From assembly GCF_014524565.1 (NCBI RefSeq), contig NZ_CP060139.1, positions 806,001-870,000 of the forward strand: a stretch of DNA of 64,000 nucleotides, written 5' to 3'. Source of the stretch: Croceimicrobium hydrocarbonivorans (GTDB taxonomy: Bacteria; Bacteroidota; Bacteroidia; Flavobacteriales; Schleiferiaceae). The notes beneath the pieces are model-generated. The model had not been told where the DNA came from. It saw nothing but the letters and a program-made list of their open reading frames with translations, and did not search any database. A program made the position numbers and the translations under genes. Positions 20,376 through 25,950 of the stretch are shown here, one piece after another; position 1 is the first letter of the stretch; every line of letters begins with the position of its first letter.

Positions 20376-20396
20376 AAGCCTATTTTATTGTAAAGA

Positions 20397-20425
20397 AAGC
20401 CACCTTTTTTAGGGTGGCTTTTTTA
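20397..20425 (+). terminator. Rho-independent terminator after the Asp-box gene
   Basis: AAGCCACC and GGTGGCTT form an 8-bp stem around a T-rich loop, then a T run, about 20 bases after the stop. Confidence 0.88.
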
Positions 20426-20540: not shown

Positions 20541-20582
20541 AGGTCATCAAAACCAACCTTAACCAAACAAAACCGATGACCT
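20541..20582 (+). promoter_or_regulatory. Inverted repeat that could sequester the start codon of the T9SS-cargo gene
   Basis: AGGTCATC (20541-20548) and GATGACCT (20575-20582) are perfect 8-base inverted copies around a 26-base loop made almost wholly of A and C. The right arm contains the ATG at 20576. In RNA the hairpin would cover the start of the four-gene operon. A protein-binding dyad is the alternative. Confidence 0.4.
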
Positions 20583-21631
20583 ATCGATTAATTCTGATGC
20601 GAAGCCTAGGAATATTCCTGGCTTCGCTTTCGCTTTCTGCACAAAATTCTGGCAATTACTTTAATGACAGCACATCAGCCCGCTATCGCTATGATCTCGA
20701 AAGCCATCAATACGCTACCATACCGGGTGGCACCTCTATTAATGATTTAGATCCATTAGAAAAGGAATTGTTGAAACCTCTATGGGATATTCAAAAAATA
20801 AGCTCCGGAATAAATTCCTCCAACGAGCCTTATTATGAAATCCAAAATGTTCGGAATAGTTCCATAGAGAACTGGCTTTCAAAACCCTATCGACAGCTTC
20901 TTACTCCAGCTGGTAGTTATGGTTTCGATTCTTTGGGAAATGAAGTTTACTACTTCCCTAATAATCCAATTGAGAATCTCGACATGCAGGATCAAGTCAA
21001 TCAGATTCAGTCAGATGGCTTTCAACCCATTATGATGTTCTTTCCAACCAAAAGAGATGATTTTGTGCAGGAAGCACTAGACCAAGGGGCTACGATGCTT
21101 AATCACGAGGATAATGCCTTCACTTTAATCCTGGGGGAATCAGAAGTTCGGATTGAACCTGAAACAAAAACGATACAAAATCGCTATCGGATCGAAAACA
21201 CTCAATATGAAGTCACTACTGCTTACACGCTACTTTCTCCATACGGTTATGTCCCGATTTGGGAGAAGGAAAGCAGGCAGCGTTTGGATTTAGATCATCC
21301 AATAAGCCTGATTAATCAAAGGACCTTTCGCAACCATGTGATTGAGGACCTTTATGATAAGATCGAAAAGTATACTGATAAAGCTTATTTACAAGTCTAT
21401 CCGAACCCGGTAGTTTCAGAATTTGAAATAATACTACGTGGCCTTCCAGAAGCTCAGGTAAGTCTGATCCAGATTCGGGACCATTTTGGAAATATTCTAT
21501 TCAGCTATTCAAATCCCTCGGTTGATCAGAACATTATTCATTTGGATGGATCTACTTATCCCTCTGGCGTACTAATCCTCTTAGTCTATACCCAGGAAGG
21601 CATTTTCACTGAAACCCTAACCAAAATCTAA
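20576..21631 (+). CDS. Secreted protein with T9SS type A sorting domain, unknown function
   Basis: A 351-residue protein. The signal peptide ends SLSAQ (about residue 22). Residues 30-270 match no family I know; they include TIPGGTSINDLDPLEKELLKP and a segment PIMMFFPTKRDDFVQEALDQ. Residues about 272-351 are a T9SS type A C-terminal domain: LQVYPNPVVSEFEI, a middle strand pair, and the terminal FTETLTKI. It should cross the outer membrane through T9SS and be released or anchored at the surface. It is the first gene of a tight operon; three bases separate it from the hydrolase. An ATG at 20597 is an alternative start. Confidence 0.75.
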   Translation: MTYRLILMRSLGIFLASLSLSAQNSGNYFNDSTSARYRYDLESHQYATIPGGTSINDLDPLEKELLKPLWDIQKISSGINSSNEPYYEIQNVRNSSIENWLSKPYRQLLTPAGSYGFDSLGNEVYYFPNNPIENLDMQDQVNQIQSDGFQPIMMFFPTKRDDFVQEALDQGATMLNHEDNAFTLILGESEVRIEPETKTIQNRYRIENTQYEVTTAYTLLSPYGYVPIWEKESRQRLDLDHPISLINQRTFRNHVIEDLYDKIEKYTDKAYLQVYPNPVVSEFEIILRGLPEAQVSLIQIRDHFGNILFSYSNPSVDQNIIHLDGSTYPSGVLILLVYTQEGIFTETLTKI

Positions 21632-21634
21632 GTC

Positions 21635-23167
21635 ATGAAATTGCTTTATTCTTCGCTTCTCAATCTATTTCTAGCCTCTTCGATTTTTGCTCAGATCGAA
21701 GTTATCTCAACCGATTCCTTACGAGTTATTGATACTGATCCAGAAGGAGGAAGCTCTGGTGGTCTAATTGGCGGATCGACACTTCTCAATTCGGACAGCA
21801 GTTTAGTGGGCAGGAAACTAGTCTTCTGGATTCATGGCTTAGCAGGCAATGAACATTCTTGGAATCGCATTCAAGCATCCACAGAAAACCAAACAGGCAA
21901 TCCTATTCCCAATTACCCAGAACGAAATGTAGAGGGTTACGCCCTTAGTTATGAGGGAAGTGAAAACTTAAATATCTTTCAATTAGGCGGCCATGTAAAT
22001 AATGGTTTGATGGAAACCTGGCGAGTTTCAATCCCCCGGCGCGATACCCTTGATGTTCGAAACAATTTTGTTATCGCCCATAGTCAAGGTGGCATAGTTG
22101 CTCGCGCTATTCGCTACATGAATCTAATAGATTCCTCAAATTACCATTGGCAATTTGGAGCCATAGCAACATTTGGCAGTCCGCACGGAGGAGCCCAAAT
22201 CATTAATTCCACTCAGACAGGAGGGCTTGTCCAAACCTGGATTGATGATGGCTGCAAAAAAATATCAAGGGGCGAAATTCAAACATTCGTAGGTACGCGT
22301 TGGTGGCTGGATCTAATTATTAGTAATGATGCCGTAGTATCCTTCTCCAATCTCACCTGCAATGGGCTCAACAAAATGGCCCTGCCAATATTAATCAATG
22401 CCATAAGGAAACCGGTTGGTGCTGACTATGCTGTAGGAGCAAGTAACCTAGCGAAACTGGATAGTATGGCTTATTTAGACACCATGAAAGTAGTCACTTT
22501 TTATGGTGTAGAGCAGGAACCCGTGCTATGGCGAACTATCCATAGTATGACCTATACCAAAGACTCGTCCATTGCGGGCAATCCTCTTTCGACAGATCCT
22601 TTTGGACTAAATGAAGATGATGAGCTCCCAATATTTGTAAATCATAAAATATCGAGCTATCACGCAAAATGGTCAAGCCATAATTCAAGATCAAATCAAT
22701 TATGGTATCAAATCACTTGGCATAGTAAAGATGAAAAGGAGAAAGCGGAAATCTATCGAGATGCCCATGATTGGTTAGCCTACGCAAATCTCAATTGGAA
22801 GCGATTCATTGGCGCTCGGAAAGACACTACTTATATCGATGGTTACCATTGTGAATGCTTGGTAAATCTTGGAGGAACAGATGGTTATCAGTTCACCTAT
22901 CAGCATGTTCAAAATCCTGGTGATTGCAATGACTCATTGGCCGTCAATTGCCAGGCAAATCCTAAAATCGTACATACGGTGATTGAAGAACCTAATGACG
23001 GGGTAGTTCCAGTTTCCTCGCAAATTGGGTATCCGAATCGATTTAATTCTTTCCTAATGGAAAACACTAATCATATGCAGGAAAGAAATTGTGGAGAAAC
23101 CAAGAAAATGTTAAAGCTTCTATTCAATGGTGACTATGGAGATAAATTTAAACTTGATAAAAAATGA
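21635..23167 (+). CDS. Exported alpha/beta hydrolase, PGAP1/lipase-like
   Basis: A 510-residue protein with a signal peptide ending SIFAQ (residue 20). VFWIHGLAGNEHSW (64-76) gives the oxyanion-hole HG. FVIAHSQGGIVARAI is a nucleophile elbow with Ser150. D455 in EEPNDGVVPVSS and H480 in NTNHMQERN are well placed to complete the triad. A mid-region rich in aromatic residues (300-420) could be a lid or binding insert, and several Cys suggest disulfides. The likely activity is esterase or lipase; the substrate is unknown. It lacks a T9SS tail, so is probably periplasmic unless carried otherwise. It overlaps the next gene by four bases. Confidence 0.75.
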   Translation: MKLLYSSLLNLFLASSIFAQIEVISTDSLRVIDTDPEGGSSGGLIGGSTLLNSDSSLVGRKLVFWIHGLAGNEHSWNRIQASTENQTGNPIPNYPERNVEGYALSYEGSENLNIFQLGGHVNNGLMETWRVSIPRRDTLDVRNNFVIAHSQGGIVARAIRYMNLIDSSNYHWQFGAIATFGSPHGGAQIINSTQTGGLVQTWIDDGCKKISRGEIQTFVGTRWWLDLIISNDAVVSFSNLTCNGLNKMALPILINAIRKPVGADYAVGASNLAKLDSMAYLDTMKVVTFYGVEQEPVLWRTIHSMTYTKDSSIAGNPLSTDPFGLNEDDELPIFVNHKISSYHAKWSSHNSRSNQLWYQITWHSKDEKEKAEIYRDAHDWLAYANLNWKRFIGARKDTTYIDGYHCECLVNLGGTDGYQFTYQHVQNPGDCNDSLAVNCQANPKIVHTVIEEPNDGVVPVSSQIGYPNRFNSFLMENTNHMQERNCGETKKMLKLLFNGDYGDKFKLDKK

Positions 23168-24384
23168 TCCGATTTAGACCCCTAATTATACTGCTAATTG
23201 CTGTTTTATTGAGTTGTCATAAAGACAAGCAAATCAGATCCAGCCCTTCCTTTAAAGCTAATTTGGAAATTAAATGGCGAAAATCAATTGTTCCAAACCC
23301 AAGTATAGACTTCACTATCGCGATTAACCCAATACTCTATGAAAACACTGTCGTTTTCGGAACGGAATATTTTCTATATAACCAATCTGCACCTATCCTC
23401 TTTCTTGACACCTCAAATGGTAGCCTTGAAAATTACTGGTCAGATTATTTAGATGGGAACGACTTATATGTTGGAGAAACAAGTGCAAATGATGGCCAAT
23501 TTCTTTTTCTGAGCACACATCATTCAATTGATTGTGTAAACCTTGAGAATCATAATACACAATGGCAAGCTAAGGTTTCAGGGAATGGCCCTCACATTTA
23601 CACCAACAAGGGCTATTTATACACCGCCATTGACTACGATGGAAATAAAGGTGCTGCTATACTTAGATCCCCCACCGACCACCTTGAATGGAATACTATT
23701 TACGCATTTAAACGCACTGATCGTTTTGATCCAAGTTTTGACTCTATGGGATTTGGTGAATTGGCTAACGGCGATGAAGTGGTAGTATGGAAAAATCGCA
23801 GTTACACTGGTTCTGCGGATCGAACCGACATATTCGCTTACAATTTAACAGCGGATACCTTACTCTGGAGGAATATGGATATGGAAATAAATTCTGGGAT
23901 CATCCCTCTTAAAGTCAAAGATCAGAGAGTATTTGGCTTAGTAAAGAATCATGTTTTCTGTATGAACTTAAACTCTGGGGATATGATTTGGATTCGGGAT
24001 GCAAGAGAAATTGTAAAACCAACCTTGGATTTTGGCTTTTTTGCTGGAGACCTCCATCTCACTTCAGATGCTGTTGTATTTAAAGGAGATAGTGATGAAA
24101 TTATTGCCGTAAACCAATCTAATGGAGCACTTAGATACATCCGCCAAGATGTTACCTGGGGTTTCGAAGATCGATTTAGCGTTTACAATGGCAAACTATT
24201 TTTCACTGGCGGTTACCAATTTGTAGTTTTTGATCCAGAAATCGGAGAAGTACTCTACAACGAAGATTTAAGCCATCAGTTTAAAACCATTCGAAGCAGA
24301 ATCGTATTCGACCCTATACGCCCTGTTATGTATTTTCACAATGGTCGCGAAGCCTTCTGCGTCAAAGTCCCCAATTTAGATTAA
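23164..24384 (+). CDS. PQQ-like beta-propeller lipoprotein
   Basis: A 406-residue lipoprotein: AVLLSC lipobox, Cys about 18, followed by HKDK, resembling a flavobacterial surface-export signal. Repeating units such as TVVFGTEYFLYN, LFLDTSNGSLENYW, FLSTHHSIDCVNLENHNTQWQAK, HVFCMNLNSGDMIWIRDAR, IIAVNQSNGALRYIRQ and LFFTGGYQFVVFDPEIGEVLYN are PQQ/BamB-type blades (roughly six or seven). No calcium/quinone dehydrogenase site is seen, so it is probably a binding scaffold. It sits between an exported hydrolase and a small outer-membrane protein, suggesting one envelope complex (inference). Confidence 0.7.
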   Translation: MIRFRPLIILLIAVLLSCHKDKQIRSSPSFKANLEIKWRKSIVPNPSIDFTIAINPILYENTVVFGTEYFLYNQSAPILFLDTSNGSLENYWSDYLDGNDLYVGETSANDGQFLFLSTHHSIDCVNLENHNTQWQAKVSGNGPHIYTNKGYLYTAIDYDGNKGAAILRSPTDHLEWNTIYAFKRTDRFDPSFDSMGFGELANGDEVVVWKNRSYTGSADRTDIFAYNLTADTLLWRNMDMEINSGIIPLKVKDQRVFGLVKNHVFCMNLNSGDMIWIRDAREIVKPTLDFGFFAGDLHLTSDAVVFKGDSDEIIAVNQSNGALRYIRQDVTWGFEDRFSVYNGKLFFTGGYQFVVFDPEIGEVLYNEDLSHQFKTIRSRIVFDPIRPVMYFHNGREAFCVKVPNLD

Positions 24385-24399
24385 CCTAAACCTGACCAA

Positions 24400-25044
24400 A
24401 TGAAAACCTTATTCCTTTCGCTTTTGCTTAGTCCTCTTTTATTTCAAAGTGCCAAAGGGCAACTCTTGGACTCCTCGCATCATAGACTTAGCTTCAGGCC
24501 ACTTTCCTCCTACAGCCCCAAGTTTCCGGATGTCACTAATCAGTTCACATATGGAGGGATATCCATTAGCGCATTTGCCCCCTTTAACAATGCTAATACC
24601 GGTTTTAACATTCAATTCTCCTTAGATGCTGGGAATATTTCCATGGAGGAAGCTGGTACAATAGACTTGTTTTGGAGCACCAGTAACTATTCAATATCTG
24701 CAACAGGCAACTTTTTCACTCCTTCTGTTTACGCAGGGCTCTGCACCTTAATTCCTTTAAACAAAAACTGGACTTTAAGCTGCTCTGCAAACCTTGGAGC
24801 CTCTTTAGGTATAGCTTTCCTCGACTCTTATGTCACATTAAATAATGTAACAGATTACAGTTCGAGTATCGAGGAATTGCTAAGCATAGGAAACCTATTT
24901 GAATTAGGTTTGGCCCATAGCAGTAAAGCCAAAAGTGGTTATGAAATCGGGATTAGCTTCACCTTGCCTTGGATAATCGAATCTTATACTGAGCCTTATA
25001 CTTACTATAGTTATGGACTGTATTACAGTTACCTGTTTTTCTAA
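24400..25044 (+). CDS. Exported protein, probable small outer-membrane barrel
   Basis: A 214-residue protein with signal peptide ending SAKGQ (residue 21). The mature part is rich in Ser, Tyr, Asn and Phe with alternating strands (FTYGGISISAFAPF, FNIQFSLDAGNISM, YSISATGNFFTPSVYAGLC, YEIGISFTLPWI) and ends YYSYLFF, an aromatic terminus usual for barrels. No family recognised. It is the last gene of the four-gene exported operon, 15 bases after the propeller gene. Confidence 0.55.
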   Translation: MKTLFLSLLLSPLLFQSAKGQLLDSSHHRLSFRPLSSYSPKFPDVTNQFTYGGISISAFAPFNNANTGFNIQFSLDAGNISMEEAGTIDLFWSTSNYSISATGNFFTPSVYAGLCTLIPLNKNWTLSCSANLGASLGIAFLDSYVTLNNVTDYSSSIEELLSIGNLFELGLAHSSKAKSGYEIGISFTLPWIIESYTEPYTYYSYGLYYSYLFF

Positions 25045-25137: not shown

Positions 25138-25212
25138 ATAATTTAATCAAGTGGTTATAGTTTCCCCTTATCATCCTTTGTATCAGTGTCCGTTTACACC
25201 CTTATTTTATAT

Positions 25213-25220
25213 TACCTTTG
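25213..25220 (+). promoter_or_regulatory. Putative -7 box of folE
   Basis: TACCTTTG, an exact TAnnTTTG. It lies inside the longest folE frame, downstream of its first ATG at 25186, and so moves the likely start to 25258 or 25264. Confidence 0.55.
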
Positions 25221-25263
25221 CCGGCTCAATTCATTGCGCCTGCCGCATTCTAATTCATTGACG

Positions 25264-25950
25264 GTGAACACTGATAACCCAATAAATTCCCACGACGAAG
25301 AAGGGGATTTACATATTTCAAACAGCAATATTGAAACTCCACTTAAAGCCAATGCCTTTGAGATGGATGATGCTACTAAAATTCAGGTGATCCAAGAGCA
25401 TTTTGAAAAAATCATGGACACCCTGGGACTTGATCTTCAAGATGATAGTCTTAAAGGAACTCCTAAAAGGGTGGCGAAAATGTTTGTTCAGGAAATCTTT
25501 GGAGGACTGCATCCAGATCGAAAGCCCAGCGCCAGCACCTTTGAAAATAAGTATCAATACGGTGAAATGCTGGTGGAAAAGAACATTGTTGTTTATTCTA
25601 CTTGCGAGCATCATTTCCTTCCGATTGTTGGACGAGCCCATGTGGCTTATATCTCCAAAGGCCGTGTAATTGGCCTCAGTAAGATGAACCGCATCGTAGA
25701 TTATTACGCCAAACGTCCACAAGTGCAGGAGCGGATGACCAAGCAAATTGTTGCTGCCCTTCAAGAAGCACTGGGAACAGATGATGTTGCCTGTGTAATT
25801 GACGCTAAACACCTTTGTGTTAATTCACGTGGGATACGCGATATTGAAAGCAGTACCGTTACCGCTGAATTTGGTGGTGCTTTTAAAGAGGAAGAGAAAA
25901 AACGTGACTTCCTCGACTACATTAATTTAGACACACATTTCGGAGCCTAA
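25264..25950 (+). CDS. folE: GTP cyclohydrolase I
   Basis: Converts GTP to dihydroneopterin triphosphate, the first step of tetrahydrofolate and pterin synthesis. Seen: [20 protein letters not shown], the zinc site [13 protein letters not shown], the GKVIGLSK-like [27 protein letters not shown] (described by parts), and [13 protein letters not shown]. From a GTG at 25264 it has 228 residues, near the family norm. The first in-frame ATG (25186) lies upstream of the probable promoter and would add 26 unrelated residues; a TTG at 25258 is also possible. It is followed 11 bases later by cysS, indicating an operon. Confidence 0.93.

Follow-up and report, generated by a model that had tools for sequence, protein, structure and literature searches.

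A three-gene accessory cassette joining a lipase-fold enzyme, a propeller lipoprotein and a type IX secretion-type protein in Croceimicrobium hydrocarbonivorans

The window analysed here is a 64,000-nucleotide stretch of the Croceimicrobium hydrocarbonivorans genome (positions 806001-870000 of a single contig of 4,035,598 bases). Between a VPS10-like gene and folE it carries four closely spaced forward-strand genes, which we call A to D, and the first three belong to an accessory cassette that recurs in related bacteria. Gene A (20576-21631, in window coordinates as throughout) encodes a Sec-exported protein of 351 aa with a predicted LolA/LolB-like N-domain (residues 34-259 approximately) and a type A sorting domain of the type IX secretion system (T9SS; residues 270-351). 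Gene B (21635-23167) encodes a 510-aa lipase-fold hydrolase with a Ser150-Asp455-His480 triad, and gene C (23164-24384), which overlaps B by 4 bases, a 406-aa lipoprotein with a BamB-type beta-propeller. Our tentative reading, to which we give somewhat less than an even chance, is that B is a T9SS-linked lipase effector, C its immunity lipoprotein and A an exported carrier; B would be toxic and C would neutralise it. A constant partner lipoprotein, multiplication of C, its retention beside a broken B and the mobility of the whole unit are as self-protection predicts.

The conserved unit and its proteins

The four frames, their gaps of 3, -4 and 15 bases (A/B, B/C and C/D) and the terminator to their left were recovered in our check of open reading frames (ORFs) and stems just as a sequence-only reading of this DNA had given them. 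The same holds for the export signals, which we assessed by eye as signal peptides in A, B and C and as a signal-like N-terminus in D. That reading had gone on to propose an undescribed envelope module of all four genes, with C as propeller scaffold. Our neighbourhood comparison retains a module of A, B and C, which travel together, and excludes D: a search of 149 relatives gave matches to B in 29 genomes, to A in 20, to C in 16 and to D in only 2 (some of the A matches cover no more than the sorting domain), and D was dropped as a module part on that count. The scaffold role is not favoured either, because of the three genes only C has been multiplied, and it survives beside broken B genes.

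We examined 31 loci with a complete B and enough surrounding contig, 16 of them in large-genome genera, 11 in two small-genome genera of the family (g12 and g13) and four outside it or of uncertain placement (records labelled Bacteroidota, Flavobacteriales, Saprospiraceae and Bacteroidales). This set excludes loci at contig ends (G040, G074, G082) and broken B genes (G014:C2, G013 and a remnant in G003); at G032 the 414-aa frame behind B was counted, the 854-aa frame there being spurious. A full-length lipoprotein-like frame follows B directly at all 31 loci (intact B without it, 0/31), as is expected of an effector-immunity pair. The two frames overlap by 4 bases at 18 of the 31, and such spacing suggests that A, B and C are co-transcribed. 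Kinship of this frame to C is direct at 20 loci, comes from profiles at 7 (all g12), from inspection by eye at 2 and from position at 2 (both g13). The g12 profile matches, with probabilities of 96.9% and 85.7%, cover seven of nine loci (not L136 and L140), while the two g13 loci reach only 13% and were assigned by position, length and lipobox.

Gene A is firm at 20 of the 31 loci, the same 20 that have direct C kinship. The window A alone matches the upstream gene at 15 of the 16 large-genome loci, and an N-domain profile built from those 15 proteins also matches G016, L137, L141, L145 and L146 (E values of 1e-11 to 1e-19, in a small set). The same profile matched none of eight g12/g13 proteins, another comparison was also low, and one strong g13 match came from a profile that contained a g13 relative (L132). 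The gene in the A position at the 11 g12/g13 loci is not detectably related to A, and its assignment as A is a putative one, from position and general make-up. Because A is firm only at 20 of 31 loci and the lipoprotein-like frame is present at all 31, B-C forms, on these comparisons, the core, which A usually accompanies; the conserved unit comprises three of the four genes.

Among 88 family genomes, 30 had a B match, a figure that includes a partial hydrolase-core match in G012 and pieces in G013, G074 and G082; 26 genomes had one or more B genes that were complete or nearly so. The records include Schleiferiaceae, Cryomorphaceae, Phaeocystidibacter and Owenweeksia. A phylum search matched 23 of 395 genomes, of which only C. 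hydrocarbonivorans itself (G000) was full-length, the rest being partial matches over the hydrolase core of at most 46 bits. A chance neighbourhood of unrelated genes was rejected, since the A-B-C arrangement recurs across the family and beyond it.

The proposed catalytic residues S150, D455 and H480 of B proved to be invariant in all 24 aligned sequences (window B included), and the alignment also showed several conserved cysteines. The predicted fold is that of a bacterial lipase/phospholipase (PlaB, Z 20.6 over 231 residues, rmsd 3.2), and lipases in complex with their foldases (2es4_B, 9g8u_A) are among the structural neighbours. Fold and Ser-Asp-His triad together place B among the alpha/beta-hydrolase lipases. 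The former label of PGAP1-like hydrolase was given up, as B scores 20.1 bits against a Pfam cut-off of 24.3. B shares its predicted fold and triad with PlaB and the family I lipases, but differs in sequence (13% identity), in helical and beta insertions, in its conserved cysteines and in gene context. Its closest named relative is in the Flavobacteriales metagenome-assembled genome UBA7878 (93% identical). We found no phage relatives of B among 50,697 phage records, and of 107 pattern matches in viral contigs none was confirmed.

C could be upheld as a PQQ-type propeller lipoprotein. It scores 34 bits to the PQQ_2/BamB propeller (cut-off 27.6), PQQ_2 is found in 30/30 C proteins and the lipobox Cys18 is invariant in all of them. 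A profile comparison matches BamB (5d0o_B, E 5.8e-23). Membership of BamB itself was rejected at 15.4 bits, far below the equivalog cut-off of 285.2; C shares with BamB a lipoprotein with a propeller, but is accessory, mobile and multicopy.

A was correctly taken for a T9SS cargo. By sequence, the match of its C-terminus to the sorting domain is borderline (TIGR04183, 23.1 bits with a cut-off of 23; PF18962, 23.8 bits with a cut-off of 27); the predicted fold shows the domain clearly (Z 11.7 to the C-terminal domain of NucA). PF18962 was found at E<=0.01 in 14 of 22 proteins in the A position, and an NCBIfam scan found no sorting domain in that of L129. SprA was above cut-off in all 32 genomes tested, cassette-bearing or not, so the presence of a T9SS does not discriminate. 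For the N-domain, the top fold matches were LolA3 of P. gingivalis (Z 9.5 over 158 residues, rmsd 5.0) and a DUF1329 protein (9.2), followed by an ependymin-type protein (8.7) and LolB (8.6); unmatched models reach a background Z of 7-8, which makes the LolA3 match a modest one. There was no sequence match to the LolA/LolB superfamily. The models thus modestly favour a LolA/LolB-like fold. The N-domain would share the half-open beta-barrel-type fold of these carriers, but A has a T9SS sorting domain, and the DUF1329 and ependymin-type proteins score alike.

Unequal fates and shared divergence of B and C

C can persist where B does not, with two clear cases at a cassette. At G014:C2, C is intact and the B frame starts past the catalytic serine. 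At G013:C49, C is again intact and only the tail of B remains, the wider match containing five stops. In G010, about 46 residues of a B tail precede the second C. In G038, a C-like propeller lipoprotein of 408 aa stands alone (L227 852-2078), with no B match in that stretch. C is also multiplied on its own: there are four copies at a second locus of G000 (a single copy at the matching locus of the congener G001) and four in G019, two plus a third split over two frames in G005, two plus pieces at contig ends in G002, and two each in G010 and L141. The four copies at the second G000 locus are 85-95% identical, with ratios of nonsynonymous to synonymous substitution of 0.11-0.21; by these values the copies are held by purifying selection. 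No B remnants were found in the gaps between them. Remnants and C copies were called in part by a profile scan whose profiles were built from many of the proteins then found, so that its scores are circular. The copying of C alone and its retention beside a broken B suggest a self-protected weapon.

B and C also diverge together. With the distance of the marker CysS held constant, their partial correlation is 0.75 in 16 loci (0/5000 permutations), 0.68 in the 14 loci without G001 (1/5000) and 0.45 in 9 loci from two genera (54/5000). For the same three sets, A-B gives 0.77, 0.77 and -0.10 (0, 1 and 2854 of 5000 permutations) and A-C gives 0.71, 0.69 and 0.43 (1, 2 and 127 of 5000). Distance-correlation tests of this kind are lenient and the pairs in them are not independent; as far as these distances go, B and C are the pair that correlates more consistently at short range.

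Two observations on the cassette remnants and repeats can be added. In G003, a 142-aa frame (L091 6250-6678) begins as A, ends as B and is followed by a C tail, the trace of a cassette that has decayed. In G000, long arrays of repeats of about 77 bases, judged from self-match spacing, lie downstream of the four C genes at L087 15720-17842 and 19060-20000, and dispersed repeats with the motif GCCTGCCGGTAGGCGGG occur between neighbouring C copies as well as elsewhere in the locus (e.g. L087 10165-10576, 11819-12133 and 13379-13675).

Mobility and history of the cassette

In all five other congeners (G002-G006), VPS10 and folE lie side by side without A-D; the block is present in G000 and G001 only. 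The proposal that these genes stand apart from their neighbours was well founded, the block being an insertion, and the empty site marks a mobile accessory cassette. Because the site is empty in the other congeners, gain of the block in G000 and G001 is favoured. No mobile-element genes or borders were noticed beside the window copy in the ORF list and the printed congener sequences.

The second G000 cassette, that with four tandem C genes, has a B that is 55% identical to the window B, and its upstream flank matches that of the second G001 cassette. A comparison of flanks at 12 loci (ORFs of at least 100 aa) showed one 49%-identical flanking gene shared by G002 and G004, whose cassettes may occupy a common site. 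Apart from the G000/G001 pairs, the other loci share weak flank similarities only.

In the 16 large-genome loci, which also underlie the co-divergence figures, mean identity within the genus is 45% for B and 38% for C, compared with 43% and 36% to genus g9. CysS, the single marker used, falls from 84% to 69%, and A tracks the genera more (50% against 34%). The near-equal values for B and C would fit transfer as well as an old duplication followed by loss, and the B tree lacks resolution in this clade.

A distant B-C pair is also found on a 176-kb Fibrella plasmid (CP155473.1; L265 3981-7306), beside the conjugative-transposon genes traN, traM and traK. The plasmid B matches the B profile at E 1.2e-25 and keeps S, D and H, while most of the conserved cysteines are missing; the plasmid C (E 1.5e-51) overlaps the B ahead of it by 1 base. 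PLSDB types this plasmid as non-mobilizable, and it is the sole plasmid record found among 72,556. The pair raises the effector reading and lowers the lipid-processing alternative discussed below.

Possible functions

As an effector-immunity system, A-B-C would be a mobile accessory unit, tied to the T9SS, with which bacteria antagonise one another. B would be a secreted lipase-fold enzyme that passes the outer membrane and attacks membrane lipids, its presumed substrate, to toxic effect. C, produced in step with B and anchored as a lipoprotein in the outer membrane, would bind and silence the enzyme, thereby protecting the maker and its kin; we infer this from the way C always follows B, is copied and is retained. 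A would be exported by the T9SS and carry B, or a lipid substrate, to or across the outer membrane, its carrier-like domain shielding a greasy surface of one or the other. A fuller scenario, an undescribed antagonism system of Bacteroidota in which a T9SS-exported Lol-fold carrier delivers a phospholipase, a BamB-like outer-membrane lipoprotein confers immunity, the cassette spreads between lineages and survivors retain and multiply only C, is one we regard as doubtful in its entirety.

Several points weigh against an effector role. It gives no account of how B would enter a rival cell. B has no T9SS sorting domain of its own, which leaves its export across the outer membrane conjectural. The enzyme keeps one catalytic type, with no swapping of the kind seen in polymorphic toxins, and diversifying selection on C was rejected, as there was none on average. 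C also decays (the split copy in G005, tails in G003 and G033), and the clear cases of C outliving B at a cassette number two against none for the reverse, a small sample. On the plasmid, the 252-aa gene ahead of B lacks a sorting domain and shows no convincing relationship to A. Finally, weapons are less expected in streamlined marine genomes, and B or a piece of it is present in 11 of 22 g12 genomes.

That persistence in streamlined genomes sits more easily with a role in surface lipid or lipoprotein processing, in which B cuts surface lipids, the exported Lol-fold A takes up the product and C binds B or the lipid, for foraging or envelope remodelling. The resemblance of the A N-domain to lipid carriers (LolA3, LolB) and the lipase fold of B speak for it too, and dedicated Lol proteins are described in an accessory pigment locus in the accessible part of one report (PMC11885536). 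Extra C copies would then raise capacity, but C-only multiplication and the retention of C beside a broken B are not predicted by lipid processing as such. We noticed neither uptake genes nor SusCD-like genes in the listed loci, though no search was aimed at them. We consider this explanation rather unlikely. C might instead assist the folding or maturation of the lipase B, like the lipase-specific foldases, with A as a surface tether: C always lies behind B, mostly in overlapping frames, and foldase-complexed lipases are among the neighbours of B. One would not expect a foldase to be copied on its own or to outlast its enzyme, however, and C is a BamB-type propeller, to our knowledge not a fold of lipase foldases, which makes this improbable. 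Least probable, in our view, is the original module, in which cargo, hydrolase and propeller scaffold would act together with D as membrane anchor. All four genes are tightly spaced, and a small gene of about 200-235 aa follows C in G003, G013, G022, L137 and L145, but none of these is detectably related to the rare D, and several A-B-C loci have no same-strand small gene behind C (e.g. G004, G010 and G019).

An effector role for B would have precedents in known systems. The available portions of the sources describe lipase effectors of the type VI secretion system (T6SS) with several immunity genes, such as Tle1AH with Tli1 and Tli2; there, a GXSXG lipase-type enzyme is often followed by multiple immunity genes, some of them annotated as outer-membrane lipoproteins (PMC7245790). 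B differs in having its own Sec-type signal and a T9SS-type neighbour, and C is a BamB-like propeller. VipB (PF05943) was found in 0/7 genomes of the genus, in a search whose control matched only E. coli and which could miss a Bacteroidota-type T6SS. Genes with T9SS sorting domains beside toxin and immunity genes are likewise described for TANFOR toxins and Apibacter Rhs proteins, in the portions available (PMC7073777, PMC8125069). B differs from these in its lipase fold, which is not swapped; the Pfam and NCBIfam scans, for which the presence of a TANFOR model is unchecked, list no TANFOR or Rhs family for A or B. We found no report of the A-B-C trio in literature titles and abstracts, a coverage that leaves out preprints and most subscription journals.

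The passages available from two of these sources (PMC7073777, PMC8125069) describe it as open or poorly understood whether bacteria make use of the T9SS in fighting one another. The cassette offers a compact test of this, with three genes, a predicted active-site serine and a candidate antidote. If B is indeed an effector, the cassette would be a T9SS-linked variant of effector-immunity systems; if lipid processing is correct, it would be a lipase module travelling with an exported Lol-fold carrier, likewise undescribed in the literature found.

Gene D, a small protein of 214 aa (24400-25044, forward strand), lies within the inserted block and outside the conserved unit. By eye it has a barrel-like appearance and is possibly an outer-membrane protein, which makes it a candidate membrane anchor. 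It had no match in Pfam, NCBIfam, PADLOC or PHROGs, and searches of the window proteins with the latter two gave no known phage or defence families. The left edge of the block is marked by an intrinsic terminator-like stem of 14 pairs with a T run (20393-20424, forward strand), behind the VPS10-like gene. Close to its right edge is a Bacteroidota-type -7 box of folE, TACCTTTG (25213-25220, forward strand), visible in 7/7 genomes of the genus. Because folE has its own -7 box, it is probably not part of the A-D operon, and because this box sits at 25213, the folE start is probably downstream of the GTG at 25186. Only G001 has an extra gene between D and folE, encoding 544 aa with a sorting-domain-type match (L118 11742-13376). 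All seven genomes of the genus have two GTP cyclohydrolase I genes that are 55-59% identical, in C. hydrocarbonivorans the one in the window (25186-25950) and another at G000:C1:224757-225425.

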